A model generated the notes under the pieces. That model saw nothing but the letters and a program-made list of their open reading frames with translations, had not been told where the DNA came from and made no database searches. The translations under genes and the position numbers were made by a program. Below are positions 18,934 to 35,003 of a DNA stretch of 64,000 bases, piece after piece (position 1 is the stretch's first letter; every line of letters starts with the position of its first letter). Source of the stretch: an uncultured Stenotrophomonas sp. (GTDB lineage Bacteria; Pseudomonadota; Gammaproteobacteria; Xanthomonadales; Xanthomonadaceae); NCBI RefSeq assembly GCF_945952405.1, contig NZ_CAMFIA010000012.1, positions 49,360-113,359 of the forward strand. Reading direction: 5' to 3'.

Positions 18934-19328
18934 TGCGCCCGGCAGAGGTGGAACGGTTCGTCGGCATTCCCTACGACGGCGATCACTTCGATTGCGCCGA
19001 CCTGGTGGTGCTGGTGCAGCAGCAGCTGTTCGGCCGGGCCATCACGCTGCCAGGGCGCCGCCCCCGCGGGCTGCAGGGCTCGGCCGAGCTGGGCGCGCTG
19101 TCGCGGCCCTATGCGCATCGGCGGGACGGACCGCCGGAAGATGGCGACCTTGTTCTGATGATCGATCAGGGACACCGAAACCCCGGCCATGCCGGGGTTT
19201 TCTTCTTTCTGGCCCATGAGGGCTGGGTTCTCCACAGCAACGAGTGCAACGGCTGCAGCGTGCTGCACCGGGTGCGCGATCTGCCCGGCTTCGGGCTGCG
19301 AATCGAGGGTTACTACGCATGGGCCTGA
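18933..19328 (+). CDS. NlpC/P60-like tail-associated cell-wall peptidase
   Basis: 131 residues. HFDCADLVVLVQQQLFGR contains the expected nucleophilic Cys (about residue 22) and GHRNPGHAGVFFF the expected His. This Cys/His layout matches small NlpC/P60 peptidases placed before the J gene in many siphophages, where they cut peptide cross-links during entry. The DNA coding for the His motif is itself a perfect intrinsic terminator (19178-19208). The stop overlaps the start of the J-like gene. Confidence 0.82.
   Translation: MRPAEVERFVGIPYDGDHFDCADLVVLVQQQLFGRAITLPGRRPRGLQGSAELGALSRPYAHRRDGPPEDGDLVLMIDQGHRNPGHAGVFFFLAHEGWVLHSNECNGCSVLHRVRDLPGFGLRIEGYYAWA
19178..19208 (+). terminator. Intrinsic terminator embedded in the NlpC/P60 coding sequence
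   Basis: AAACCCCGGC (19178-19187) pairs perfectly with GCCGGGGTTT (19191-19200) around a CAT loop and is followed by TCTTCTTT. It lies in the sense direction within an intact gene and would reduce transcription of the J gene unless suppressed by translating ribosomes or antitermination. Confidence 0.65.
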
Positions 19329-22300
19329 TGCAAGCGCCAACCGATGCCGGCCGACTGATCATCACCCCGCATCCGGTGATGCTGGACGGCCAGCAGAACC
19401 TGCAGGCCGACCTGCGCCCGGGGGAGAGCCTGTATGGGTTCCTCGCGCGCCATGTGCACGGGCTGGACGGACAGGCATGGGTGGTCACCATCGGCGGCCG
19501 GCCGGTGGAACGCCACCTGTGGTGCAACGTGTACCCGAAGCACGGCCAGGTGATCGAGGTCCGCGCCGTGGTAGGCAAGAGCGCTATCCGCCTCGTAGCG
19601 ATGATCGCGCTTACCTACTTCACTTTGGGTGGCGCGTCCATCGCGGGCTTCAGCATCGGCACATCCACGGCGCTGGGCACGACCATCGCCCGAATCGCGG
19701 TTTACGTCGCCGGCAGCTTGCTCATCAACAAAGTGCTGGGGCCTAAGTTGCCCAGTGCCGCAGCGACGGCGCCGGCGGATACGGCGTTCTCGATCTCGGC
19801 GCCCCGGAATCGCGCCCGCGCCTATGAGCCTCTGTCACTGCTGTTCGGCAGCGTGCGCATCGCCCCCGACGTGGCTAGCAAGCCGTACATGCACTACGAG
19901 GGCGACGAGCAGTACCTGTCGCTGGTGCTTACGCCGGGTGTGAATGTGGGGCGTGTCGAAGCGCTCTACAACGGCGACGCGCTGCTGAGCACCTACGAGG
20001 GTGTGCAGGTCTGGCACAACGGCTTCCCGGGCATGCCCAGCCAGGCCATTCCGCTCTACAGCAATTCCGCAAGCGTCGACGGCGGCACGATCCTGGACAC
20101 CAGCAGCGATCCGAAGCACACCCCGAGCAAGTGGATTCAGCGCACCAGCGCGCCCGGTGCCATCCGCCTGCAGGTGAACATGGACTTCCGCATCTTCGAC
20201 GCCGATTCGAAGGGGCGCGAGTACGAGAATCGGGAGCAGATCCAGATCCAGTACCGCGCCGTGGGGGAGAGCGCTTGGCGCCCGTTCGGCACCTATTCGG
20301 TGTCCGGCCGCACGCAGAAGTCGCGCCGGGCCACCTACGGGCTGGACGTGGCGCCGGGCCAGTACGAAGTGCAGGTGCGCACCACCGGCCAGAACACCGA
20401 CGGGAACAACGCGCAGGCCAGCTTCACCTGGACCAACCTGGTGAGCGTGATGGCCGACACCGCCAGCTATGACGGCATCCCGCGCATTGGTATCCGGATG
20501 AAGGCTTCCGGCCAGCTCAACGGCAGCCCCGACGAGCTGCGCTGTGTGGCGCATTCCCTGCCGATCCTGGTGTGGAAGGGCGACGCCATCGGCTGGGTCA
20601 CGGAGGAAAGCAGCAACCCCGGTGCGCAGATCCTGGCCTATGCCCGCGGCATCAAGTCGCCGGCCGGCGTGCGGATCGGCGGCATGGGGCTACCCGACAG
20701 CCAGATCGACGTGGAAGCCCTTAAGGCCTTCATGCTGCACTGCGCGGCCAATGGTTTCACCTACGACTACCTGGTGACCGACAAGCGCAACCATCAGGCG
20801 GTGATGGATGCGATTGCGCTGGCCGGCTTCGGCCAGATCGCCTGGCCCAAGGGTCGGCTGGCGGTGGTGTGGGCCGCCGATGAGCAGCCGCTCTCGGGCG
20901 TGGTCAACATGGCCACCATCAAGAAGGGCCAGTTCCAGGTCGAGTACACCCTGGCCAACGGTGCCGACGGCATCGAGTACAGCTACCTGGACCGGGCCAC
21001 TTGGGAGGCCCGGACCCTTCGCGTTCCCGCGCCGGGCGTGTCTACCATGCTCAACCCGGCGCAGGTGACCGGTGAGGGCGTCACCAGCGAGGCGCACGCG
21101 GCCACCCTGGCGCGCTGGCATCTGGCGCAGAGCCTTTACCAGTACAAGTCGATCAGCTACAGCACCAACATTGAGCATCTGGCCTATGGCCGCATGTCGG
21201 TGCTGGCGCTGCAGCACGACCTGACGCAGTGGGGCTTCGGTGGCCAGGTGCTGTCGGCCACGATGGGGCCGGGCAGGGCGGTCACGCTGCAGCTGGACGT
21301 GCAGGTGCCTGGGCGCGCGCAGGCAAGCGCCTACATCGGTCTGCGGATCCCGGGCGAGCGGGTGTACCGCGTGTTGCGGGTGCGCCCGTTCACCGGTGAG
21401 AGCGATCAGCTGGTGCTGGCCGATCCGTGGCCGACCGATGCGGCGCTGCCCGGCGACAGCGAGGGCAATCCAGCCTGGGACACCATCTGGATTTACGACT
21501 TCAAGCAGACGCCGGGCTACCGGGTCCGCGTGGTGGCGATCCAGCCGGAGAACGACCTTAAGGGCGCTTCGGTCGACGTGGTGGCCGAGGGGCCGGAATA
21601 CTGGCATTACGTCAAGACGGGCGAGTACATCCCGCCCGACAGCGGCTCGCAGCTCGGCACGCGGCCGGTGGCCAGCAATCTGCGCATCACCGAGCGCCAG
21701 GTGGTGCAGGGCGACACGGTGTTCTCCGAGCTGCAGGCGTCCTTCGATATCTCCGGGCCGGTGGGCGAAATTCGGGTGCTGTCGGACCTGGACCAGAATG
21801 CGGAGCTGGAACAGGTCGCGTCGACCACGACGCGCACAGCCAGCTGGCGCATTCCGCGCGCCGGCGTCTACCCGATCACGGTTCGCCCCTACAGCCCGGA
21901 CGGCCAGGCCGGCGTGGCGGTGACGGTGACCTATGCCACCCAAGGCGCCGACGTGCCGCCGGTGCTGGTGGACCTGTTCGACGTGGAGGAACGCAGCGGC
22001 GGCGTGCGCCTCTACACCTGGGGCTGGCTGGGTAGCACCACCCGCTCGCCGGACTTTGCCGGCGTCGAGATCCGGTACATGCCGGGGAAGGTGGCAGCGC
22101 CGGACTGGCACGCGATGACGCCGGTGGGCGAGACGGGCTACCACACCGCGCCATTCGAGAACGTCATTCCGGAATCGGGCGACTGGACCTTCGCCTGCCG
22201 CAGCGTGAATACCTCGGGCGAGCTGTCCACGGAAAGCCGGGTGGTCATGAAGACCCTTGGCCAGAACCTGGGCGAGGTGCTCGATACGACGGTCCAGCAG

Positions 22301-24061
22301 ATGATCGACCAGCAGCGGCAGATCGACCAGGAGAAGGTCGACCGCTTCAACGAGGATGCGCGCGTGTCGCAGCAGGCCGCGGCCGACGCAACGGCCAAGG
22401 CCAATGCGGCGCGGGATGCGGCGATTGCCCATGCCGATGCCATCGCTGCCATCGTGTCGGATATCACCGAGGCCGACGACTGGGTGGCGCCCAAGACGTA
22501 CCCGGCCGGGGACTTCGTCAAGCACGGCGGCAAGCTCTACCGCGCGCTGCGGGAGAGCACCGGAGCCGAGCCGGGGCTCAGCCCGGAGGACTGGCAGCTG
22601 ATCGGCAACTTCGCCGGCGTCGGCGAGGCGCTGGCCGCGTCCATCGATATGTCGTTCCAAAACGCGTCCGACCTGGCCGCCGAGGCCGGCCGCATCAATG
22701 CGATCCTCGCCCGAATGCCGGCTGGCGACGGCAAGGTGGCCTCGGTCGAGGCAGTCGATGCGGTCAACGCGCGCGTGGAGCAAACCGAGGGCGGCGTGCG
22801 CGCGGTCGGGGAGCGGACCACCTCGCTTGAGGCGCAGCTCAGCTACAAGCACGCCGGGGACCGCGACTGGAACGCCGGCGACATGAACGTGCGCGCCGGT
22901 GTGCGCACCTGGCAGTCGGTCATGGCCGAAGGTGACCGGGCGGTGGCCAAGCGAGTGGATGCCACCAATGCCGAACTGGGTTCGTTCAAGGCTGGGACCA
23001 CCAAGTCCATCGAGGTGATCGCCACCAAGCAGGCCGCGCAGGCTGAGCAGATCGAGCATGTCGGGGCCGAGCTGGAGGGAAAGGCATCCGCCGATGCCCT
23101 GCGGCAGGTCAGCAGCAGGGTGGAGCAGACCGAGGGAGGGCTGCAGGCCGTCTCTGGCCAGCTGGAGTCGGTGAAGGCCGATCTGGGTGGCAAGGCCAGT
23201 GCGCAGGTCGTGCAGGGGATGGAGGCACGCGTGGTCCAGACCGAGCAGGGGCTGCAGTCGGTCCGGGCCCGGGCATACCTGAAGGTGATCGCCGACGCCG
23301 GCCAGGGGCCGTTGATTGGCGGCATGGAGATCGACAACGACGGCAACACGGTGGCCACGCGGTTCGTGAGCAGCCAGTTCGAGATCCTGACCCCTAACGC
23401 GGCCAGCGGGATCGAGATCCGCGATGGCTATCACCGGGTGTGGAGTGCCAACGCTCAGCGCATCATCGGCGTCGGGTTCGGCAAGCCGGCTGATCGGCTC
23501 ATGGACTACTTCGGCCCGAACGTCGGTGCAGCCAATGCGTCCAAGCTCAACGCCACGATGTGGATGGACATGGACGGCAACGCGTACTTTGGCGGCGCTC
23601 TCCGCGCGGGTGCGATCAACAGCGGCGGCCAGTTCAATCTCAACAACGCCAATTGGGACAGCGCTACCTACCTGAGCGTAATGCACGCGGGGTCACAGGG
23701 GCGGCCCAAGGTGGTGTTGCGCTGGGCACGGCTAAGTGCAGAGGCGGTCTCGTTCGGCAATGCCTCGCTGCCCACCCGCACAGGCACGATGCGCCTGCGC
23801 CTGTGGCGGGATAGCACGCTGCTGTCGGACCAGAGCATTACCGCCTCCTCGGTCAACGTCTATGAGCCCGACTCGAACCGCACGCTCACAACGCAGACCT
23901 GGGAGTGGCCGCAGCTGTCGATCACCGACACGTCCAACGCCACCGGCAACGTGCCGTACCGCATGCAGATCGACTTCACCGGTGGCACCCGCTACGACAT
24001 TCCCGCGTCTGTGGTCGGAGCCCTGCCAAGTGTTGCGGTGTTGAACATCATCGAAAGCTAA
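19319..24061 (+). CDS. Tail tip attachment protein, lambda J-like
   Basis: 1580 residues from ATG 19319 (GAGGGT upstream); ATG 19328 is an alternative. Like J proteins it starts with a small domain (LRPGESLYGFLARHVHGLDG), a hydrophobic segment (about 95-140), and the conserved core with DTAFSISAPRNRARAYEPLS and GVRIGGMGLPDSQIDVEALK. Fibronectin-like domains follow. Near residue 1055, DDWVAPKTYPAGDFVKHGGK looks like a small carbohydrate-binding module. Coiled-coil repeats with RVEQTEGG come next and the C-terminus (after 1320) has the DUF1983-like part and a likely receptor-binding beta region. It determines host range. Confidence 0.93.
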   Translation: MGLMQAPTDAGRLIITPHPVMLDGQQNLQADLRPGESLYGFLARHVHGLDGQAWVVTIGGRPVERHLWCNVYPKHGQVIEVRAVVGKSAIRLVAMIALTYFTLGGASIAGFSIGTSTALGTTIARIAVYVAGSLLINKVLGPKLPSAAATAPADTAFSISAPRNRARAYEPLSLLFGSVRIAPDVASKPYMHYEGDEQYLSLVLTPGVNVGRVEALYNGDALLSTYEGVQVWHNGFPGMPSQAIPLYSNSASVDGGTILDTSSDPKHTPSKWIQRTSAPGAIRLQVNMDFRIFDADSKGREYENREQIQIQYRAVGESAWRPFGTYSVSGRTQKSRRATYGLDVAPGQYEVQVRTTGQNTDGNNAQASFTWTNLVSVMADTASYDGIPRIGIRMKASGQLNGSPDELRCVAHSLPILVWKGDAIGWVTEESSNPGAQILAYARGIKSPAGVRIGGMGLPDSQIDVEALKAFMLHCAANGFTYDYLVTDKRNHQAVMDAIALAGFGQIAWPKGRLAVVWAADEQPLSGVVNMATIKKGQFQVEYTLANGADGIEYSYLDRATWEARTLRVPAPGVSTMLNPAQVTGEGVTSEAHAATLARWHLAQSLYQYKSISYSTNIEHLAYGRMSVLALQHDLTQWGFGGQVLSATMGPGRAVTLQLDVQVPGRAQASAYIGLRIPGERVYRVLRVRPFTGESDQLVLADPWPTDAALPGDSEGNPAWDTIWIYDFKQTPGYRVRVVAIQPENDLKGASVDVVAEGPEYWHYVKTGEYIPPDSGSQLGTRPVASNLRITERQVVQGDTVFSELQASFDISGPVGEIRVLSDLDQNAELEQVASTTTRTASWRIPRAGVYPITVRPYSPDGQAGVAVTVTYATQGADVPPVLVDLFDVEERSGGVRLYTWGWLGSTTRSPDFAGVEIRYMPGKVAAPDWHAMTPVGETGYHTAPFENVIPESGDWTFACRSVNTSGELSTESRVVMKTLGQNLGEVLDTTVQQMIDQQRQIDQEKVDRFNEDARVSQQAAADATAKANAARDAAIAHADAIAAIVSDITEADDWVAPKTYPAGDFVKHGGKLYRALRESTGAEPGLSPEDWQLIGNFAGVGEALAASIDMSFQNASDLAAEAGRINAILARMPAGDGKVASVEAVDAVNARVEQTEGGVRAVGERTTSLEAQLSYKHAGDRDWNAGDMNVRAGVRTWQSVMAEGDRAVAKRVDATNAELGSFKAGTTKSIEVIATKQAAQAEQIEHVGAELEGKASADALRQVSSRVEQTEGGLQAVSGQLESVKADLGGKASAQVVQGMEARVVQTEQGLQSVRARAYLKVIADAGQGPLIGGMEIDNDGNTVATRFVSSQFEILTPNAASGIEIRDGYHRVWSANAQRIIGVGFGKPADRLMDYFGPNVGAANASKLNATMWMDMDGNAYFGGALRAGAINSGGQFNLNNANWDSATYLSVMHAGSQGRPKVVLRWARLSAEAVSFGNASLPTRTGTMRLRLWRDSTLLSDQSITASSVNVYEPDSNRTLTTQTWEWPQLSITDTSNATGNVPYRMQIDFTGGTRYDIPASVVGALPSVAVLNIIES

Positions 24062-24098: not shown

Positions 24099-24129
24099 AT
24101 GCCCGCGCATCAGGAAAGGGACAAGAGCA

Positions 24130-25293
24130 ATGGCTCAGAAGAAAACCGACCAGACGACACTCAATCCGGATGGTAGTCACGGCGATGACGCGTTCACCGC
24201 CTTTGCCATCTTCAACGACAACGCTGATGACGCAGAAGCCAGGCTGCACGCGCTGGAGACCGGTGCCGGTGGGGTGGGGCAGGACGTGGCAGCCTTGCAG
24301 TTGGGGCTGCAGCAGGAGAGCCAGGCCCGACAGCAGGCGGATACGGCCGAGGCGCTGGCGCGCCAGCAGGCCGATGCTGCCCTGGATCTGCGGGTTGATG
24401 GGCTCCGCGGCCGGATGCTGGGTGACAACGCGCTGATCAACGGCGATTTTGACGTCTGGCAGAGGGGAACATCGTTTACCGCTACGGCGGTATACGGTCC
24501 TGATCGCTGGTTCATCCAGCAGGGCGGTGTGACCGGCCAGTCCTTTGCCAAGAACGCCTTGTCTCTTGGCGACGTCAATTTCCCGGCCAGTGAAAGCAAC
24601 CTTTTCGTCACGCTCACCGGGAACAGCAATGCCAGCGGCGCGCATCAGGTGTTTGAACAACGCGTTGAGGATTGCCGGACCTTCGCAGACGTGCCATCCA
24701 CGCTGAGCTTCAGGGTGTTCAATCCAGGCGCAGCTGGGCGCAAGATCGCCGTTGAGTTTGCGCAGACCTTCGGGGCAGGTGGCTCGGCAACCGTGCTGGG
24801 AATTGCTCCACAGGTGTTCACCTTGGCCGCTGGCCTGAACATCATCACCAAGACCGTTACGCTTCCGTCCATCGCAGGAAAGACGGCAGGTGCAGGTAGT
24901 GCAGCGGTGGTCGCCATCTGGACCACGGCGGGCTCGGATTTCAGTGCGCGCACCGCCGGGCTGGGCTTGCAGACAGGCTCTCTGTACTTCGGAAAAATGA
25001 AGTGGGAAGCCGGGGCGGTGGCAACGCCCTTTGCGCGGCGGCCGCCAGGGGCAGAGTTGCTGCTTTGCTACCGGTATGGGGAGCCCATCGGCCTCATCGC
25101 CGATTCGCAGGGCGCCAACTACACGCCGTATTCCTACAAGGTGCCGAAGCGCGTTGTTCCGACATTGACCGTGCTCGGCAGTTCGATCGCACCGGCGGTA
25201 TTGAACGCGCGGGGCTCCACAACCTGGTTCAGCATGGACGGGCGCGCGCCCACCTCTGTGGCCAGTTACTGCTTTGCCGACGCGGAGCTTTGA
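24130..25293 (+). CDS. Tail fibre / minor tail protein
   Basis: 387 residues from ATG 24130. After a polar start (TLNPDGSHGDDAFTAFAIFN) comes a helical, Gln-rich stalk (about 30-95), then a beta-rich domain beginning NALINGDFDVWQRGTSF. That NGDFDVWQRG motif is common in phage fibre and structural proteins with a jelly-roll-like domain, and the later FGKMKWEAGAVATPF and RRPPGAELLLCYRYGEPIG stretches complete it. It probably forms a side fibre or tip adhesin. Its place right after J and before the 25296 gene fits a fibre module. Confidence 0.82.
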   Translation: MAQKKTDQTTLNPDGSHGDDAFTAFAIFNDNADDAEARLHALETGAGGVGQDVAALQLGLQQESQARQQADTAEALARQQADAALDLRVDGLRGRMLGDNALINGDFDVWQRGTSFTATAVYGPDRWFIQQGGVTGQSFAKNALSLGDVNFPASESNLFVTLTGNSNASGAHQVFEQRVEDCRTFADVPSTLSFRVFNPGAAGRKIAVEFAQTFGAGGSATVLGIAPQVFTLAAGLNIITKTVTLPSIAGKTAGAGSAAVVAIWTTAGSDFSARTAGLGLQTGSLYFGKMKWEAGAVATPFARRPPGAELLLCYRYGEPIGLIADSQGANYTPYSYKVPKRVVPTLTVLGSSIAPAVLNARGSTTWFSMDGRAPTSVASYCFADAEL

Positions 25294-25295
25294 TC

Positions 25296-25766
25296 ATGTA
25301 CCAACTGACTGCAGACCCCTCCGTCGTCTACTGTCCCGAGCGCCAGTCGTGGATCTCCGAGGGCACCTGGTTGTGGGACCAGTACCAGCTCTGGCTGAAA
25401 GAGGGCAACACGCCGGCGCCCATCGGGCCGAGCTATGCGCTCCACTCGCCCGAGCACTTCCGCGCGATCCGCGACCAGGCGTTTACGTGGATGCGCGGCG
25501 CGGCCGTGGCCCGCGGCTATGACAGCATCGAATCGTGCGCCAGCTACTACAACAGCGGCGTGAGCCGGTATCGCCTCGAGGCGCGGGCGATGGTGGCCTG
25601 GCGCGATGCCGTGAACCAGCAACTGGAGCAGCTGGTGCTGGCGCCGCCGACGGGCATCGAGACCTGGGACCAGGTGCGAGCGCTGCTGCCCCAGCCGGAG
25701 GCCTTCGCCTGGCCCGAGAGGGCCGAGCTGCCGCTGGAGACCGGGAGCCCTGCCGTAGTTCTCTAA
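25296..25766 (+). CDS. Hypothetical protein of fibre module
   Basis: 156 residues from ATG 25296 with GGAG upstream. The sequence is rich in Trp and Tyr (SWISEGTWLWDQYQLWL) and has a helical middle part (EHFRAIRDQAFTWMRG, RLEARAMVAWRDAVNQQ). Small proteins of this kind follow fibre genes in several phages; a fibre assembly chaperone is possible but not shown. It lies three bases after the fibre gene. Its stop overlaps the end of the convergent SRAP remnant. Confidence 0.75.
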   Translation: MYQLTADPSVVYCPERQSWISEGTWLWDQYQLWLKEGNTPAPIGPSYALHSPEHFRAIRDQAFTWMRGAAVARGYDSIESCASYYNSGVSRYRLEARAMVAWRDAVNQQLEQLVLAPPTGIETWDQVRALLPQPEAFAWPERAELPLETGSPAVVL

Positions 25767-25972
25767 GCCACCTGTTGCAGCAGGTCCTCTCGGTTGTTCC
25801 GCGGCGTGTTCAATGCGCAGCTGAAGTGGTACTCCACCGTGGCCGGCGGCTTGCTGGCCGCCATCCACTCATCGATCTGGCCGATCTGCAGCCACACAGG
25901 CATGCGGTCGTGGACGTCGGCCGAAACGCTGCTGCTGTCCCCCTCACCTGGAGAAGTGACCCTATGGGCGCC
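25763..25972 (-). pseudogene. C-terminal remnant of an SRAP (YedK/HMCES-like) gene
   Basis: Read on the complement, this stretch encodes ADVHDRMPVWLQIGQIDEWM followed by a YHFSCALNTPRNNREDLL segment and a stop. The HDRMPV motif and the V/L-N-x-PRN-x C-terminus are hallmarks of SOS-response-associated peptidase domain proteins, which crosslink to abasic sites in DNA. The catalytic N-terminal Cys, the core domain and part of the segment between the two motifs are absent, and an in-frame stop lies just upstream at about 25973. It is a decayed cargo gene. Such genes are often found at the end of tail modules in related prophages (recollection). Confidence 0.65.
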
Positions 25973-26099
25973 TCATTTCGACTGGAGTAATCTACTCCCG
26001 GACAGTCAGGCCTCGGAACAAGTAGGAAGACTGGCCTCGCTTGAGGCGTATGCGCCAACTACCTATCAATGCCGCGAAGCTAAAGGTTATGAGTGACAT

Positions 26100-26897
26100 A
26101 TGGAAGAACGTCCAGTCCCCATGAACTCTCTTGCCCTGACTCTCGATACCATTTCCAGTGGCACTCCATGCGCCATTCCCAAGAGTTGGCTGCAGGGGCG
26201 TACGGCCTATGGAGGTCTTTCCGCAGCGATGGCATTGCAGCTGGCGATGAAAGAGCACTCGACGGACTTGCCCCCGTTGCGAACAGCTCAGATATCGTTC
26301 ATCGGCCCGGTCACGGAGTCAGTCTGTTTCCGGACGGAGGTGCTGCGCCGAGGAAAGTCGGTAACTCAAATCGGTGTTGATGGGCATGTGGCGGATGCAT
26401 TAGCCGTGAGGGCGTCCTTCTGCTTTGCTGCGGAACGTCAAAGTGCCATCCATCACATGCGCGCTCAGCGCCCAGACGTAGGCCCGCCGTCGGACTACGA
26501 CAAATCTATCGCTTGGGCGAACCCGCCTGGATTCTTTCAAAACTTCGATGTTCGATTCGTTGGAGAATCGCTCCCCGATTCATCGTCCACCGTCCCTGAA
26601 CTTCTGGCCTGGGTGCGGCTTCGTGATGCCGATGGCATAAGAGCAGAGGTCGCCCTCATGGCGACGGGGGATTCTTTGCCGCCGGCAGCGATGGCAATGT
26701 TTGCCGGCCCAACCCCAATAAGTTCGATGAACTGGACAATCGACTTGGTTGGCCCTGCAGGAACGCCGGGATGGCTCTTGCTTCGATCACGCAGCCTAGC
26801 TGCTTCGAATGGATATTCATTCCAACTAATGGAGATCTGGGACGTTCACGGCAATTTGGTCATGTTGAGCACGCAGACCGTTGCAGTCTTTGGCTGA
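26100..26897 (+). CDS. Thioesterase-superfamily protein (TesB-like double hotdog), phage cargo
   Basis: 265 residues from ATG 26100; ATG 26121 is also possible. WLQGRTAYGGLSAAMALQLA and LRTAQISFIGPVTESVCFRT match the N-terminal hotdog domain of acyl-CoA thioesterase II-like proteins, and the C-terminal half (RFVGESLPDSSSTVPELLAW, PAAMAMFAGPTPISSMNWTI) the second. The enzyme would hydrolyse acyl-CoA thioesters in the cytoplasm. It is unrelated to virion assembly and richer in AT than the tail genes, so it is moron cargo that may alter lysogen lipid metabolism. Substrate unknown. Confidence 0.78.
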   Translation: MEERPVPMNSLALTLDTISSGTPCAIPKSWLQGRTAYGGLSAAMALQLAMKEHSTDLPPLRTAQISFIGPVTESVCFRTEVLRRGKSVTQIGVDGHVADALAVRASFCFAAERQSAIHHMRAQRPDVGPPSDYDKSIAWANPPGFFQNFDVRFVGESLPDSSSTVPELLAWVRLRDADGIRAEVALMATGDSLPPAAMAMFAGPTPISSMNWTIDLVGPAGTPGWLLLRSRSLAASNGYSFQLMEIWDVHGNLVMLSTQTVAVFG

Positions 26898-26927: not shown

Positions 26928-27134
26928 TCAAGCAGCGCGGTGGCGGCGCACGTGCAGTGGACAGAGGGTAGGGCTCTGGCCATAGTCAAAGCTGGCCAGT
27001 AGACGTGCCCAGTAAGCATCCTCAACGTACTGATCAGCCGTGATAGCCCCGCCAGCCGTGCCCGGGGCGTGCAGGAACCGGGGAAACTGTGACAACGATC
27101 CGGCGGCCTCAACATGACGCTTACGCCGCCAGGT
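26928..27134 (-). pseudogene. Coding-like fragment of unknown origin
   Basis: The complement is open for 69 codons with protein-like composition, including SQFPRFLHAPGTAGGA and TADQYVEDAYWARLLASFDY, and ends in TGA at 26928-26930. No start codon with a ribosome binding site and an upstream stop at about 27135 suggest the remains of a gene rather than an intact one. No family recognised. The region also contains the palindrome GCTGCTTAAGCAGC near 26911. Confidence 0.25.
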
Positions 27135-27171
27135 CTACGTTCGGGGTCCCCAGATGAGCCCGGAGTAGGTC

Positions 27172-27600
27172 ATGCCCAACAGGGCGGTGGTGTTTGTCAG
27201 CGAGGCCCATGGCGGGCTGAGTCAGGCTCGCCTGTCAACGATCATGGCCGATGCCGAGCGCTTCAACCGCAATGCAGGGGTAACTGGCATTACGCTGTTC
27301 GACGGGCGGCGTTTCCTTTCCTATATGGAGGGGCCGCCAGATGGCCTTGATGTCGCATTCTCCAGAGCGGTCGGGGCAACGAGCCATTCGGGATTGATCG
27401 AGATTGCGCGTGGGCGGGTAGGGCAGCGACGCCTGCCGTACTGGCCAATGCGATCGCTTCCGGTGCAGCCCGATGAGCTTAAGGCGTTGGCCTTGGCGGA
27501 CTGGACCAGCTTCACGCAGCGTGGAGGCAGGGATGGGACACCCCTGACGGCTATGGATCTCCTTGTGGCATACGTAGAGCCCTACGCGATCGCAGCGTAG
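27172..27600 (+). CDS. BLUF-domain protein lacking the photoactive Tyr and Gln (phage cargo)
   Basis: 142 residues, one BLUF fold covering residues 1-95. FNRNAGVTGITLFDG, MEGPPDG and the later YWPM keep the flavin-site Asn, the EGP turn and the Trp-x-Met pair. But the first strand reads AVVFVS with Phe where the photochemical Tyr should be (codon TTT), and FLSYMEG has Ser where the essential Gln should be (codon TCC). The host BLUF protein at 34569 keeps both. The domain should still fold and may bind flavin but is not expected to run the normal light reaction. The tail after residue 95 is short and helical. Its own effector is not evident. Confidence 0.85.
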   Translation: MPNRAVVFVSEAHGGLSQARLSTIMADAERFNRNAGVTGITLFDGRRFLSYMEGPPDGLDVAFSRAVGATSHSGLIEIARGRVGQRRLPYWPMRSLPVQPDELKALALADWTSFTQRGGRDGTPLTAMDLLVAYVEPYAIAA

Positions 27601-30753: not shown

Positions 30754-30873
30754 ATCAGTCGATTCTTCGTTGCGTGTAGGGAATTTCCTACTCAATGCAG
30801 CATGCGACTCTGGAACCTCGCGATCTGAAGCTGCAGGCAGCTCAACCCGGGGCGCGTGAGCAGCGCCGCGCCG

Positions 30874-30955
30874 GCACCCATCCCCAACGATTCAGGCAGG
30901 TCGCTGCCGCGTTCGCAGAATCTGCGACGGGCGGTCGTATCCTCCCGGCCATGCT
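30874..30955 (+). repeat. 82-bp upstream repeat, copy B (promoter/operator with palindrome)
   Basis: Second copy of the 28038-28119 element. The palindrome TCGCAG-AAT-CTGCGA lies at 30913-30927 and a -10-like TATCCT at 30938-30943 ends seven bases before the ATG at 30951. Spacing between palindrome, -10 and ATG is identical in both copies. Confidence 0.75.
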
Positions 30956-31484
30956 TCCCTCCCAGGGCTACCAAGGTTTCCGCGTCGCCCCGATCCCCTC
31001 TGGCTGGGTCCAGATTGGGGAGAGCTGGGTGCTGTGGTGGAGCGGTCGACAGATCGCCAACATCAGACGCGGTAAGGATGGCGCTGTGCGCGTGCGCTTG
31101 GATGCCCGGAAGATGGGGCAGGTCAAGGAAATACCAGCCGCCAGCATCGTCCAGGGTAAGCGCTACGCCGAGCGCTGGTGCGCAGCCAGGCTCTACCCGG
31201 AGATGCGCTTACGCGCGGCCGTGGCCCGACTGCTGGACACCACGCCGGCCGAGCCACTCGCACCGCTGCCCGGCCTGCCTCCGACCGAAGAGCAGCAGCA
31301 ACAGGCCCGGCGCCTGGCCGAGGCCGGGACGGTGGAATTGGCGCGAATCAAGGAGGCGCTGGAGCCGCGCCGACCGCTGAAGGAGCCCAAGCCCAGGGCG
31401 AAGGATCCGATGAAGATGTGGGTGGGGGCAGGGCGCGCCGAGCTACGCCGCGGCTATTTGCCGGTAGGTGGTAGCCGCTTGTAG
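30951..31484 (+). CDS. Hypothetical prophage protein, basic, probably leaderless mRNA
   Basis: 177 residues from ATG 30951. An N-terminal beta-type part (FRVAPIPSGWVQIGESWVLW, then WSGRQIANIRRGKDGAVRVR) is followed by LYPEMRLRAAVARLL, a Pro-rich linker and a basic helical C-terminus. The frame continues upstream to 30795, but the shared promoter repeat and -10-like box directly before 30951 place the start there. No known family. Similar small proteins recur near the integrase end of related prophages (recollection). Confidence 0.7.
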   Translation: MLPSQGYQGFRVAPIPSGWVQIGESWVLWWSGRQIANIRRGKDGAVRVRLDARKMGQVKEIPAASIVQGKRYAERWCAARLYPEMRLRAAVARLLDTTPAEPLAPLPGLPPTEEQQQQARRLAEAGTVELARIKEALEPRRPLKEPKPRAKDPMKMWVGAGRAELRRGYLPVGGSRL

Positions 31485-32176: not shown

Positions 32177-33166
32177 TTAGAACCTCAGCTTGGCGACAGC
32201 GTCGGCATCGCCTTCCGCGTTCAGGTGCGCGTAGTACTTCTCAGTAGTCGCGTAATCCGCGTGACCGGCAAGGATCTGTACGCGGCGTAGAGGTACACCT
32301 GCAATGACCATGTGCGCGCAGAAAGTGTGTCTCAGGCGGTGAAGACTGCCGCCAATGCCCGCGGCTTTAGCATCAGAAGAGAACCAGCCGCTGACAGTAT
32401 CCTTATGGATGCTTACCAATGGGTCGGGTAGATGTCGGAGTGCCCATCGGGCATAACGGTTTAGCGGGACCTCGCGCCACTTTCCCGACTTCGTCCGGCC
32501 GTTTTCACTCGCGTCTGGATTGCTTTCAATTAGAAGCCTACCGCGCACCACCGACGACTTCTCGAGGCCCATCAACTCCCCGCGGCGCAGGCCGGTGTGG
32601 GCCATGAATAGCCACAGTGGTGCCCGGGTAGGGTTTGCCCGATACAACCGGCGCATCGCCGCTCGATCGTAGAATTTTACCGCCACGCTCCGTACGCCGC
32701 GAGGCGCCTTCACGCAGGCTAGGGGGTTTACATCCAGCTCTTTCCATTCGACGCCGCGGTTGAAGGCCGCCTTGAGCCGTCGAATCTCCTTCCCCACTGT
32801 TTCCTTTGCAGCCTTGTCATCCAGTAGCCTGGAGCGTTTGTAATGCTCCACCTCGACTGGGCGGATGCCGTCGATCTGTCGATGGCCGAAGCGCGTCATG
32901 AAGCGCTTCACCTCGCTCCTTGCTTTGCAGATGGTGGTCGGATGCTCGGCCTCATACCAGGCCAGATACCACTCCAGATAGTCGCGAACCCTGGGCAAGC
33001 GCGCCAAGATCCGGACGCCATGGGTCAGTTCTGCTTCCTTTGCGGACCTAATTCTCTCCGCCTCAAGGGCATCGCACTGCCCAATGGACCTGCGAAAGCG
33101 GCCGTTGCTCTCAGTCCAGTCGATGTAGGCTCGCGTTCCTCTCCAGTACAGTCGCACCGTCGCCAT
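32177..33166 (-). CDS. Tyrosine recombinase, integrase A
   Basis: 329 residues from ATG 33166 (AAGGTG upstream; a GTG at 33211 is an alternative that adds 15 residues). The N-terminal arm-binding and SAM-like domains (VRDYLEWYLAWYEAEHPTTI) precede a full catalytic set: Arg in HTGLRRGELMGL, Lys in TKSGKWREVP, His and Arg in LHRLRHTF, His in LAGHADYATT and the Tyr nucleophile in EKYYAHL. It lies directly after integrase B on the same strand with a gap of only 12-57 bases, so both are probably on one transcript. Confidence 0.93.
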   Translation of the reverse strand: MATVRLYWRGTRAYIDWTESNGRFRRSIGQCDALEAERIRSAKEAELTHGVRILARLPRVRDYLEWYLAWYEAEHPTTICKARSEVKRFMTRFGHRQIDGIRPVEVEHYKRSRLLDDKAAKETVGKEIRRLKAAFNRGVEWKELDVNPLACVKAPRGVRSVAVKFYDRAAMRRLYRANPTRAPLWLFMAHTGLRRGELMGLEKSSVVRGRLLIESNPDASENGRTKSGKWREVPLNRYARWALRHLPDPLVSIHKDTVSGWFSSDAKAAGIGGSLHRLRHTFCAHMVIAGVPLRRVQILAGHADYATTEKYYAHLNAEGDADAVAKLRF

Positions 33167-33223
33167 TCCGGTCACCTTGAGTAGGGCATGCCTTGCGGTC
33201 CACATGGTCACCCTAGGAGCGCT

Positions 33224-34198
33224 CTACCCCAACTGGCGAGCGATCTCAGAAGCGGGCTCGTGGTAATAGATCATCAAAGACTTGAGATCTCGATGTCCGA
33301 TGATTCGAGCCAACTGCAGGATGTCTAACTTTTTCGAGAGCCTCCAGATGGCCTCGGCACGGCTATCGTGGAAGTGCACCTCTCGATGTCCGGTCGAATC
33401 GCGGACTTTTCGCCAGAGTGCATCACGCACGGCAGACTTGAGCTGGAAGACGGACCCGAAGCCAAGGGGAAGCGTTCTCAGAATCTCGCAGGCCCGTCGG
33501 CTAAGCGGTACATCCCTCGCGTCGCCGTTCTTGGTTTTGGGTAAGTGAACGTACTGCTCGGACAGATGCACGTTCGGCCAAGTCAGTGACAGGATCTCCC
33601 CTGATCGCATGGCTGTCTCCAAGGCGAGCAGGAAAGCCAAGCCCGTCCGCTGGGTGGCCGTCTCCGCTGACAGACCCTTCTCGAGACCGAATGCCGCAAT
33701 AAGGTCGGCTTCCTCACTTGGAGATACGCGTCGCGCGCGGCCTTTAGGCTGTTGCGGCCACCGAACGTCCGACATTGGGTTCTGCTTGATCCATTTCCAT
33801 TCCCGACGTGCGGTTTCGAATACGGACCGCATCAGGTTCATTTCGCGAGCGACCGTCCCAGGCTTGACCTGCTTAAGCCTTCCATCTCGCCAAGTGATGA
33901 TGTCCGAGCTGTCGATTGCCGCAATGCGGCGGTCCAGAAGCGGCAGAGATCTCTCCCAAGAAGCGATGCGCACCGATTCCCACCGTTCGCCCGCTCGCTT
34001 GGGCGCCTCTTCCTTGACGTAGCGGCGCATAGCTTCGCGCAGCGACTTATCTGGCAGTTTCCCGCCACGCAGCTCAGCCTCGCGCTCAAGAGCCCACTTC
34101 GCGGCTTCTTGCTTTGTGTGCTTAGTAGTGGAGTCGCGAACGCCCGCCACGTACACCTGCACGCGCCACTTGTTCCCTGATCGTTGGATGCTGGCCAT
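33224..34198 (-). CDS. Tyrosine recombinase, integrase B (attachment-site proximal)
   Basis: 324 residues. N-terminus IQRSGNKWRVQVYVAGVRDS is a typical arm-binding fold. The catalytic set is Arg in ETAMRSGEILSL, Lys in LPKTKNGDARDVPL, His and Arg in HFHDSRAEAIW, His in IIGHRDLKSL and Tyr in MIYYHE. It is the recombinase closest to the tRNA-Leu gene and therefore the best candidate for the enzyme that inserted the prophage. It is only distantly like integrase A (different spacing and motifs), so the two are not a recent duplication. A -10-like TATGAT ends six bases before its ATG. Confidence 0.94.
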   Translation of the reverse strand: MASIQRSGNKWRVQVYVAGVRDSTTKHTKQEAAKWALEREAELRGGKLPDKSLREAMRRYVKEEAPKRAGERWESVRIASWERSLPLLDRRIAAIDSSDIITWRDGRLKQVKPGTVAREMNLMRSVFETARREWKWIKQNPMSDVRWPQQPKGRARRVSPSEEADLIAAFGLEKGLSAETATQRTGLAFLLALETAMRSGEILSLTWPNVHLSEQYVHLPKTKNGDARDVPLSRRACEILRTLPLGFGSVFQLKSAVRDALWRKVRDSTGHREVHFHDSRAEAIWRLSKKLDILQLARIIGHRDLKSLMIYYHEPASEIARQLG

Positions 34199-34210: not shown

Positions 34211-34352
34211 TGGGGAATTTTTGGGGAGAGCAGCCGGGCAACTCCGGGCAAATCGTGGTGATCGCGGAAATTCGGATCACCCTAAGTGCCTGATTTCGTG
34301 CCGAATCGGGGTGAATCGTGGCGAACACGTTGGCTCCCCAAAACATGCGATG
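34211..34352. other. Attachment region between integrase B and tRNA-Leu
   Basis: This non-coding stretch has repeated motifs of the type ATCGTGGTGATCG, GGGGTGAATCGTGG and TCGGATCACC that could be integrase arm sites. The recombination core is expected to lie in the 3' end of the adjoining tRNA gene (34351 and up). Confidence 0.5.
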
Positions 34353-34437
34353 GTGCCCGGAGCCGGAATCGAACCGGCATGGGGTTGCCCCCGGCGGATT
34401 TTAAGTCCGATGCGTCTACCAGTTTCGCCATCCGGGC
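34351..34437 (-). tRNA. tRNA-Leu (anticodon TAA)
   Basis: The complement reads GCCCGGATGGCGAAACTGGT, a D loop with GGTAGACGCA, an anticodon loop CTTAAAA giving anticodon TAA, a long variable arm of the class II type (CCGGGGGCAACCCC region), the T arm GGTTCGATTCC, an acceptor stem CCGGGC and encoded CCA at 34351-34353. The prophage integrase genes lie just beyond its 3' end. Confidence 0.95.
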
Positions 34438-34568: not shown

Positions 34569-35003
34569 ATGTCGCTACACGCGATTGCCTATGCCAGTGA
34601 GGCCCGTGCCGATCTGCAGACAACCGATCTTGATCGCCTGCTGGCTGATGCCACGGCCTTCAACCGTGTGGCTGGCGTCACCGGCGTGCTGATGTTCGAC
34701 GGCAGCCGCTTCCTGCAATACCTGGAAGGTCCCGAGGATGGCATCGATTCGGTGTTCCAGCGCATCCTCAATGCGCGCAGCCACGGCCAGGTGAAGGTGC
34801 TGTGCCGCGCACCGGTGGCGCAGCGGAATTTCCCGCGCTGGTCGATGGGGACGCGGCGGATCGAAGCGGACCTGCTGGCCCCGATCGTCAATGCGGCATG
34901 GCCGGGTTTCCTGCTCGGCAGCGGCGGCTTCGATTGCCTGCTGCAGGCCTGGACCGGTGCCGATGGCGAGCTGGAACCGGCCGCGGTCGCGCTGGGCTCC
35001 TGA
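34569..35003 (+). CDS. BLUF-domain blue-light sensor protein (host)
   Basis: 144 residues from ATG 34569, preceded by a GGGGGGAG ribosome binding site. One BLUF domain: Tyr in HAIAYASEA (residue 8), Asn in FNRVAGVTGVLMFDG, Gln in FLQYLEGP and the Trp-x-Met in RWSM are all present, so flavin binding and the normal blue-light reaction are expected. A C-terminal helical part of some 45 residues follows without an output domain, so it must act through a partner protein. It is the first host gene across the attachment site and is paralogous (roughly a third identical by eye) to the prophage gene at 27172. Confidence 0.9.
   Translation: MSLHAIAYASEARADLQTTDLDRLLADATAFNRVAGVTGVLMFDGSRFLQYLEGPEDGIDSVFQRILNARSHGQVKVLCRAPVAQRNFPRWSMGTRRIEADLLAPIVNAAWPGFLLGSGGFDCLLQAWTGADGELEPAAVALGS

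Follow-up and report, generated by a model that had tools for sequence, protein, structure and literature searches.

Why does a prophage carry a gene of the BLUF family of light sensors from which both photochemically essential residues are missing? The question is raised by an open reading frame at 27172-27600 (+) in a 64,000-nucleotide stretch of DNA from an uncultured Stenotrophomonas sp. (the window, to which coordinates without a prefix refer). Its 142-residue product matches the BLUF domain profile PF04940 over residues 6-93 with 51 bits, above the curated cut-off of 25 (E 1.6e-13), which places it in the family by homology. No NCBIfam model matched it at E 0.01. Its PHROG match, phrog_19899, is labelled as unknown function; four of the five BLUF proteins tried against PHROGs matched this entry. 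Because the host BLUF protein encoded outside the prophage aligns with Slr1694/PixD without gaps, and the prophage protein aligns with the host BLUF without gaps over the domain, PixD numbering is valid for the prophage protein. Alignment with solved BLUF proteins such as Tll0078 places Phe8 at the position of the photochemical Tyr and Ser50 at that of the Gln, and Asn32, Arg65, His72, Trp91 and Met93 are retained. The first-pass annotation had read both substitutions, the Asn and the Trp-x-Met pair in the same way. Its further statement that the rest of the flavin site is kept holds for Asn32, Trp91 and Met93 but is too strong, since residues 41 and 66, which we take to line the flavin, are also altered, to Thr and Ala respectively.

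Judged by its sequence, the product is a BLUF homologue and not a BLUF photoreceptor, because the two defining residues, Tyr8 and Gln50, are both absent. It should be incapable of BLUF photochemistry, given residues 8 and 50 and a published account in which BLUF proteins with Tyr changed to Phe were photoinactive in every case (PMC9486806). The same account supports the earlier description of the protein as light-blind. The prophage protein belongs to a clade in which Phe8 is combined with Ser or Ala at position 50 (the Ser/Ala clade). Asn32 and Arg65, used as markers of the flavin site, are present in all 16 sequences of this clade after thinning, as are Trp91 and Met93. Because Asn32, Arg65, His72, Trp91 and Met93 are invariant in the clade, we infer that the protein still folds as a BLUF domain and that it probably holds flavin.

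The gene is cargo of a 44.5-kb lambda-like prophage integrated at a tRNA-Leu gene. The prophage, delimited by its attachment repeat, by uninterrupted sites and by its phage genes, extends from C12:39230 to about C12:83734; its right part occupies 1-34375 and its left end lies outside the window. The attachment repeat is 25 bp long (96% over 26 aligned columns; C12:39230-39255 and C12:83710-83734), and its right copy, at 34351-34375, is the 3’ end of the tRNA-Leu (TAA) called at 34351-34437 (-), the integration site. At the uninterrupted site L091, both prophage flanks are joined exactly at the repeat. L092 and L094 have the same first base of the right flank, and on the left their similarity stops about 0.57 kb short of the left repeat; L090 retains similarity to the final 519 bases of the prophage. 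The part in the window contains endolysin, terminase, portal, head protease, capsid, tape measure and tail fibre J genes. The tail fibre J gene and a further tail fibre gene (19244-24061 and 24127-25293, both +) form the left border of the cargo region, which extends to the integrases. The BLUF gene thus lies between the attachment sites, in the position of a moron, and the annotation of the product as a prophage-borne BLUF homologue was correct. The cargo region also holds an acyl-CoA thioesterase-like gene (Pfam 4HBT_3; 26100-26897, +), a phrog_26768 gene (30795-31484, +) and the C-terminal remnant of an SRAP (YedK-like) gene (25766-25942, -), which aligns to residues 152-221 of 221 with 63% identity. 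The open reading frame at 25794-26096 (+) runs antisense to this remnant along roughly half its length and is unlikely to be a gene. Two integrase genes, identified by profile matches, are adjacent at the attachment site (32177-34198, -): the integrase at 33224-34198 and a second one at 32177-33211. Other members of the light-blind lineage are found with an integrase beside a tmRNA (L067), near a tRNA-Leu (CAA) (L069) and at the same tRNA-Leu (TAA) (L050).

The loss of the two residues is a property of a lineage. A profile of 12 relatives (A2), all 12 rows of which read Phe8 with Ser or Ala50, was used to separate this lineage within the genus at a threshold of 250 bits. The gene was found at or above this score in 12 of the 91 genus genomes, one copy each and without stops, and every copy reads Phe8 with Ser or Ala50; the next match in the 91 genomes is a Tyr/Gln gene at 222.7 bits. 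IMG/VR contributes 15 loci on 14 viral contigs, all with Phe8 and Ser or Ala50. Because the combination recurs in each of the 12 carrier genomes and each of the 15 viral loci, the substitutions in the prophage protein are not a matter of chance. A BLUF gene of any type is present in 84 of the 91 genomes, and each of the 12 carriers has at least one Tyr/Gln BLUF. A comparison of 179 BLUF sequences, counted as distinct when their first 330 bases differ, gave 146 with the Tyr/Gln pair and 28 in which Phe is accompanied by Ser, Ala or Thr; the combination of Phe8 with Gln50 does not occur. The other five read Ile/Gln (L153, with an N-terminus that does not match), gap/Gln (L081), Tyr/Arg (L084, a decayed copy of 70 amino acids), gap/gap (L160) and gap/Arg (L008, the second frame of a frame-shifted gene). 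A more degraded group with Phe8 and Thr50 (the Phe/Thr group), which lacks Arg65, Trp91 and Met93, is present in six of the 91 genomes and on one viral contig; a second viral case (L122), a 21-residue start at a contig end, was excluded from the counts.

In 395 family genomes from 54 genera, drawn evenly from a larger group with 10 candidates scored per genome, no match outside the genus reached E 1e-38. A contig scan with short peptide patterns, which may miss relatives, returned nine loci, all in records titled Stenotrophomonas, five of the Phe type and four Tyr/Gln. Among isolated phage records, none matched the prophage BLUF at E 1e-5; the only phage records that matched the host BLUF at E 1e-3 are those of Acinetobacter phage MD-2021a (H1, H2), annotated as ycgF. 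Plasmid matches came from 126 records, all below 60% identity, by which alone they were judged. Four BLUF genes within about 10.4 kb, all Tyr/Gln, are present in each of L037, L076 and L085. At L051:7322-8660, L078, L079 and L043, a Phe/Thr BLUF, a 91-amino acid unknown protein and a Phe/Ser BLUF are encoded consecutively on one strand, apparently two light-blind BLUFs in one operon.

A large phylogenetic tree comprised 97 of 172 usable sequences after thinning (at 97% identity for the Phe types and 88% for Tyr/Gln) and was built without columns 8, 50, 91 and 93. One branch sets off all Phe types (SH-aLRT 87); its sister is a Tyr/Gln clade, members of which also start with MPN or VPN. In a more careful tree with fewer rows and the Phe/Thr group left out, the Ser/Ala clade has a support of 95/88. 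The survey for repeated loss of Tyr and Gln that the first-pass annotation had suggested therefore yields one loss for this clade, and repeated loss within it is unsupported. When the Phe/Thr group is included, it falls inside the Ser/Ala rows, forming a single Phe clade (88/84). The AU test rejected neither the Ser/Ala sequences as a clade of their own (p 0.36) nor the Phe/Thr group beside the Tyr/Gln sister (p 0.37). The Phe/Thr group may thus stem from the same loss event as the Ser/Ala clade or from a second one.

The gene next to the attachment site is not the source of the prophage gene. The host BLUF gene (34569-35003, +), outside the prophage, matches the profile with 91 bits, and its alignment confirms the earlier reading that all key residues are kept: Tyr8, Gln50, Asn32, Trp91 and Met93 are present. 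The two proteins are only 39% identical, and the trees place the host gene elsewhere; the nearest Tyr/Gln relatives of the prophage BLUF do not include it, and the next clade contains viral-contig genes. Local capture of the host BLUF beside tRNA-Leu was therefore rejected, and the special link across the attachment site that had been proposed at first finds no support. The source genome has five BLUF genes: two on C12, a Tyr/Gln gene on C9, and one Tyr/Gln and one Phe/Thr gene on C6. The Phe/Thr BLUF on C6 (L036:11448-13669) has the same small neighbours, the 91-amino acid protein and a gene we call MSILN. The 55 kb around it have no DNA similarity to the C12 prophage.

The light-blind lineage is kept under purifying selection. 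Pairwise dN/dS has a median of 0.137 in the Ser/Ala clade (77 of 120 pairs, with dS of 0.05 to 2), compared with 0.141 in the Tyr/Gln sister; the median is 0.132 in the Phe/Thr group, where 4 of 10 pairs were usable, and 0.188 in the C9-type Tyr/Gln genes. All 12 genome copies are free of premature stops, and no broken copy was seen among those found. The first-pass annotation had named stop codons in close relatives as the sign of a drifting gene; with none in the 12 copies and a dN/dS of 0.14, the gene is not drifting. The low dN/dS and the intact frames led us to reject a pseudogene. A decaying gene without function would explain why both photochemical residues are gone, but selection of this strength on stop-free copies makes it very improbable, as does the fixation of Phe8, Thr41 and Ala66 despite fourfold-degenerate sites that are near saturation.

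Selection has also fixed residues beyond the photochemical pair. Four columns, 8, 41, 50 and 66, are fixed in the Ser/Ala clade in states that few or none of 76 Tyr/Gln sequences share, and eight other columns differ in part. Column 41 is Leu in 75 of the 76 Tyr/Gln sequences and Thr in all 16 Ser/Ala sequences. Column 66 is Ile or Val in 74 of the 76 (one has Ala66) and Ala in all 16. Residue 50 is Ala in 10 of the 16. Phe8, Ser/Ala50, Thr41 and Ala66 always occur together in the clade, and all four positions presumably line the flavin. In partial agreement, Ile79 of AppA, the equivalent of position 66, is described as hydrogen-bonded via its backbone to His85, a residue able to move to the flavin (PMC10278134); beyond this passage, the excerpts of the literature yielded nothing on contacts of 41 or 66 with the flavin.

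Viral-contig BLUF genes, whether Tyr/Gln or light-blind, have neighbours in common. The viral contigs with BLUF cargo (L106-L192) comprise 64 Tyr/Gln entries, 14 Ser/Ala contigs and one Phe/Thr contig. Duplicate contigs were counted once, except for one with two Tyr/Gln genes (hence 64 entries from 63 contigs), and two contigs of ambiguous residue state were kept apart. With flanks of up to 8 kb for Ser/Ala and up to 5 kb for Tyr/Gln, an SRAP gene is found 5’ of the BLUF gene in 8 of 14 Ser/Ala contigs and 24 of 64 Tyr/Gln entries, and phrog_26768, the same family as the gene at 30795-31484, is the recurrent 3’ neighbour (10 of 14 and 38 of 64). The unnamed MSILN gene lies nearby in 7 of 14 and 26 of 64. 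At least one of the three accompanies the BLUF gene in 12 Ser/Ala contigs and 46 Tyr/Gln entries; the other 2 and 18, respectively, have none. The MSILN gene (MSILNVLL..., for example L071:11603-12262, -) belongs to no Pfam family and weakly matches a PHROG whose label is terminase large subunit.

Upstream of the prophage gene, the 95 bases at 27077-27171 (+) form a conserved BLUF leader (AACTGTGAC ... CTTACG ... TCTACG), recognized by identity among relatives and possibly comprising a promoter and 5’ untranslated region. Among 15 relatives, 9 have leaders at least 61% identical to it, two reach 52-55% and four 22-41%; the comparison levels are 18-50% in the preceding 95 bases and 22-34% at fourfold-degenerate sites. 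Two of the four differing leaders (L012, L059) belong to the operon form with a Phe/Thr BLUF, the 91-amino acid protein and a Phe/Ser BLUF. The promoter scan returned a single weak match, compared with 0.8 in shuffles; it lies outside the leader, and inside 27077-27171 there was none. The palindrome CTGAA-N3-TTCAG was considered as a control element of the prophage BLUF and rejected, as none of the 16 Ser/Ala leaders contains an exact copy and only one, L070, comes near. It is exact in 11 of 76 Tyr/Gln leaders, mostly from one orthologous group, against 0.1 expected from simple shuffles, and is present with one mismatch in 2 of 5 Phe/Thr leaders. Before Tyr/Gln BLUFs it is located about 75-88 bases 5’ of the gene (L003, L018-L020, L023-L025, L028, L042, L055). 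The source genome contains seven such sites (L193-L198), six of which were inspected; one precedes the C9 BLUF and two precede radical-SAM genes (TIGR03916 DNA repair and PA0069 family). As far as sequence can tell, the sites may mark a light or DNA-damage regulon.

The gene is intact and conserved and recurs in related viruses; its product therefore probably has a function for which the usual light reaction is no longer needed. Our proposal is that the cargo protein would derive from a short BLUF photosensor whose light switch was removed once while the remainder was kept. The signalling state that depends on the Tyr-Gln pair could not form in such a protein. Without the hydrogen bonds of Tyr and Gln, the strand carrying Met93 and the C-terminal helices would stay in a lit-like arrangement, and a lysogen would make a constant ‘light-on’ form irrespective of illumination. 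This form would act on the partner of the cell’s other short BLUFs. We thus tentatively regard the prophage BLUF as a signalling protein uncoupled from light and probably fixed lit-like. This choice follows from the behaviour of published mutants, with which the constitutive or redox variant named in the first-pass annotation also agrees. Two PixD mutants, Y8F and M93A (the latter without the Gln50-Met93 bond), are described as locked in the light-signalling state (PMC5899715). For BlsA Q51A, lit-like behaviour in darkness is reported, and two further Gln mutants, Slr1694 Q50A and AppA Q63E, are cited as pseudo-lit (PMC6695109). Further points on this side are the natural Ala50 in 10 of 16 clade sequences, the complete retention of Trp91 and Met93, the low dN/dS, the grouping in one clade, the neighbours held in common with Tyr/Gln BLUFs and the leader conserved in 9 of 15 relatives. 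Several points count against a lit-like lock. The BlsA double mutant Y7A/Q51A was not lit-like and looked as if function had been lost, and overexpression of N-terminal BlsA mutants gave insoluble protein (PMC6695109). The outcome of a Tyr-to-Phe change varies among BLUF proteins: photoreduction occurs in OaPAC Y6F, where Trp90 is the expected donor, and in bPAC Y7F, where it leads to the neutral semiquinone (PMC9486806). Thr41 and Ala66 would be superfluous for a simple lock and suggest a changed chemistry. The partner and the output of the constant signal are putative, 2 of the 14 Ser/Ala contigs and 18 of the 64 Tyr/Gln entries have none of the shared neighbours, and 4 of 15 relatives have a different leader.

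The main rival to a lit-like signaller is a redox or photoreduction sensor, in which the Tyr-less flavin would be stably reduced, by Trp91 or by metabolites, and its redox state would set the signal in place of the hydrogen-bond switch. The photoreduction of OaPAC Y6F and bPAC Y7F speaks for this, as do the invariance of Trp91 in the Ser/Ala clade and the extra changes at 41 and 66. For a Tyr-less BLUF, the semiquinone is said to control a cyclase, with the polarity inverted, and LOV proteins that naturally lack the Cys respond to reduction (PMC4682037). On the other hand, flavin binding is deduced from the sequence, there is no known need for the loss of Gln, and no redox partner gene was seen among the part of the neighbours that is annotated. 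We consider such a sensor possible but rather unlikely.

A decoy or subunit poison, which would join Tyr/Gln oligomers or occupy their partner and so blunt the light response, would account for the numerous invariant columns along the whole protein. BLUF proteins such as PixD function as oligomers (PMC5899715), and a Tyr/Gln BLUF is at hand in all 12 carriers. This co-occurrence says little, because 84 of the 91 genus genomes have a BLUF. The identity to the adjoining host BLUF is low, and fixation of positions 41 and 66 is unnecessary for a mere decoy; we therefore find this explanation unlikely. The four fixed substitutions, at 8, 41, 50 and 66, are all to smaller side chains, which is what one would expect if those at 41, 50 and 66 opened a cavity for a new ligand, or if the protein had become a flavin-free, pure protein-binding module. 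The absence of Arg65, Trp91 and Met93 from the Phe/Thr group would fit if flavin is dispensable there. Set against this is the invariance of Asn32, Arg65 and His72 in the Ser/Ala clade, and such a role seems quite unlikely.

The prophage protein resembles the short BLUF proteins PixD/Slr1694, Tll0078, BlrB and BlsA in its length, in the alignment of the domain, in Asn32, Arg65, His72, Trp91 and Met93, and in having no output domain. It differs from them in Phe8, Ser/Ala50, Thr41 and Ala66 and in being encoded in prophages and viral contigs. A named short BLUF of the genus is SnfB of Stenotrophomonas sp. SKA14 (PMC6695109). A published signature for mining BLUF proteins demands both Tyr and Gln (PMC4844311); the prophage protein fails this signature and would be missed by such mining. 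The engineered PixD Y8F, Q50A, AppA Q63E and BlsA Q51A are changed at the same positions and described as locked or pseudo-lit, whereas the prophage protein is natural, carries both changes together with two more fixed ones, and is under selection; the corresponding double mutant of BlsA, as reported, was not lit-like. Natural Cys-less LOV proteins such as BAT are likewise members of a flavin photosensor family that lost the photochemical residue and may sense redox (PMC4682037), but their fold is unrelated, and here the gene is prophage-borne and two photochemical residues were lost together. E. coli BluF, at a locus beside prophage genes, is described as having a degenerate EAL domain that lost its original activity and retains a protein-binding role (PMC3509220); in that protein it is the enzyme domain that has degenerated, and the light domain is preserved. 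In a search of the open literature, mostly without subscription journals and preprints and partly through excerpts, we found no description of a natural BLUF lineage without Tyr and Gln in prophages.

BLUF proteins with Tyr changed to Phe or Gln to Ala were known before as laboratory mutants. Here, a natural lineage has both positions changed and is under selection. With this lineage one can test directly how a BLUF acts once its photocycle is gone, and whether the signal is carried by a lit-like, a dark-like or a redox state. Viral contigs related to Stenotrophomonas prophages repeatedly carry BLUF genes as cargo, some with Tyr/Gln and some light-blind; the records of these contigs do not state the hosts. 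It is conceivable, if somewhat doubtful, that one cargo region of these prophages exists in two interchangeable versions, one encoding a working sensor and the other a light-blind protein with a rebuilt flavin pocket. The latter would fix a host pathway in the light-on state or give it redox control, and the phages may thereby compete over the light response of their hosts.
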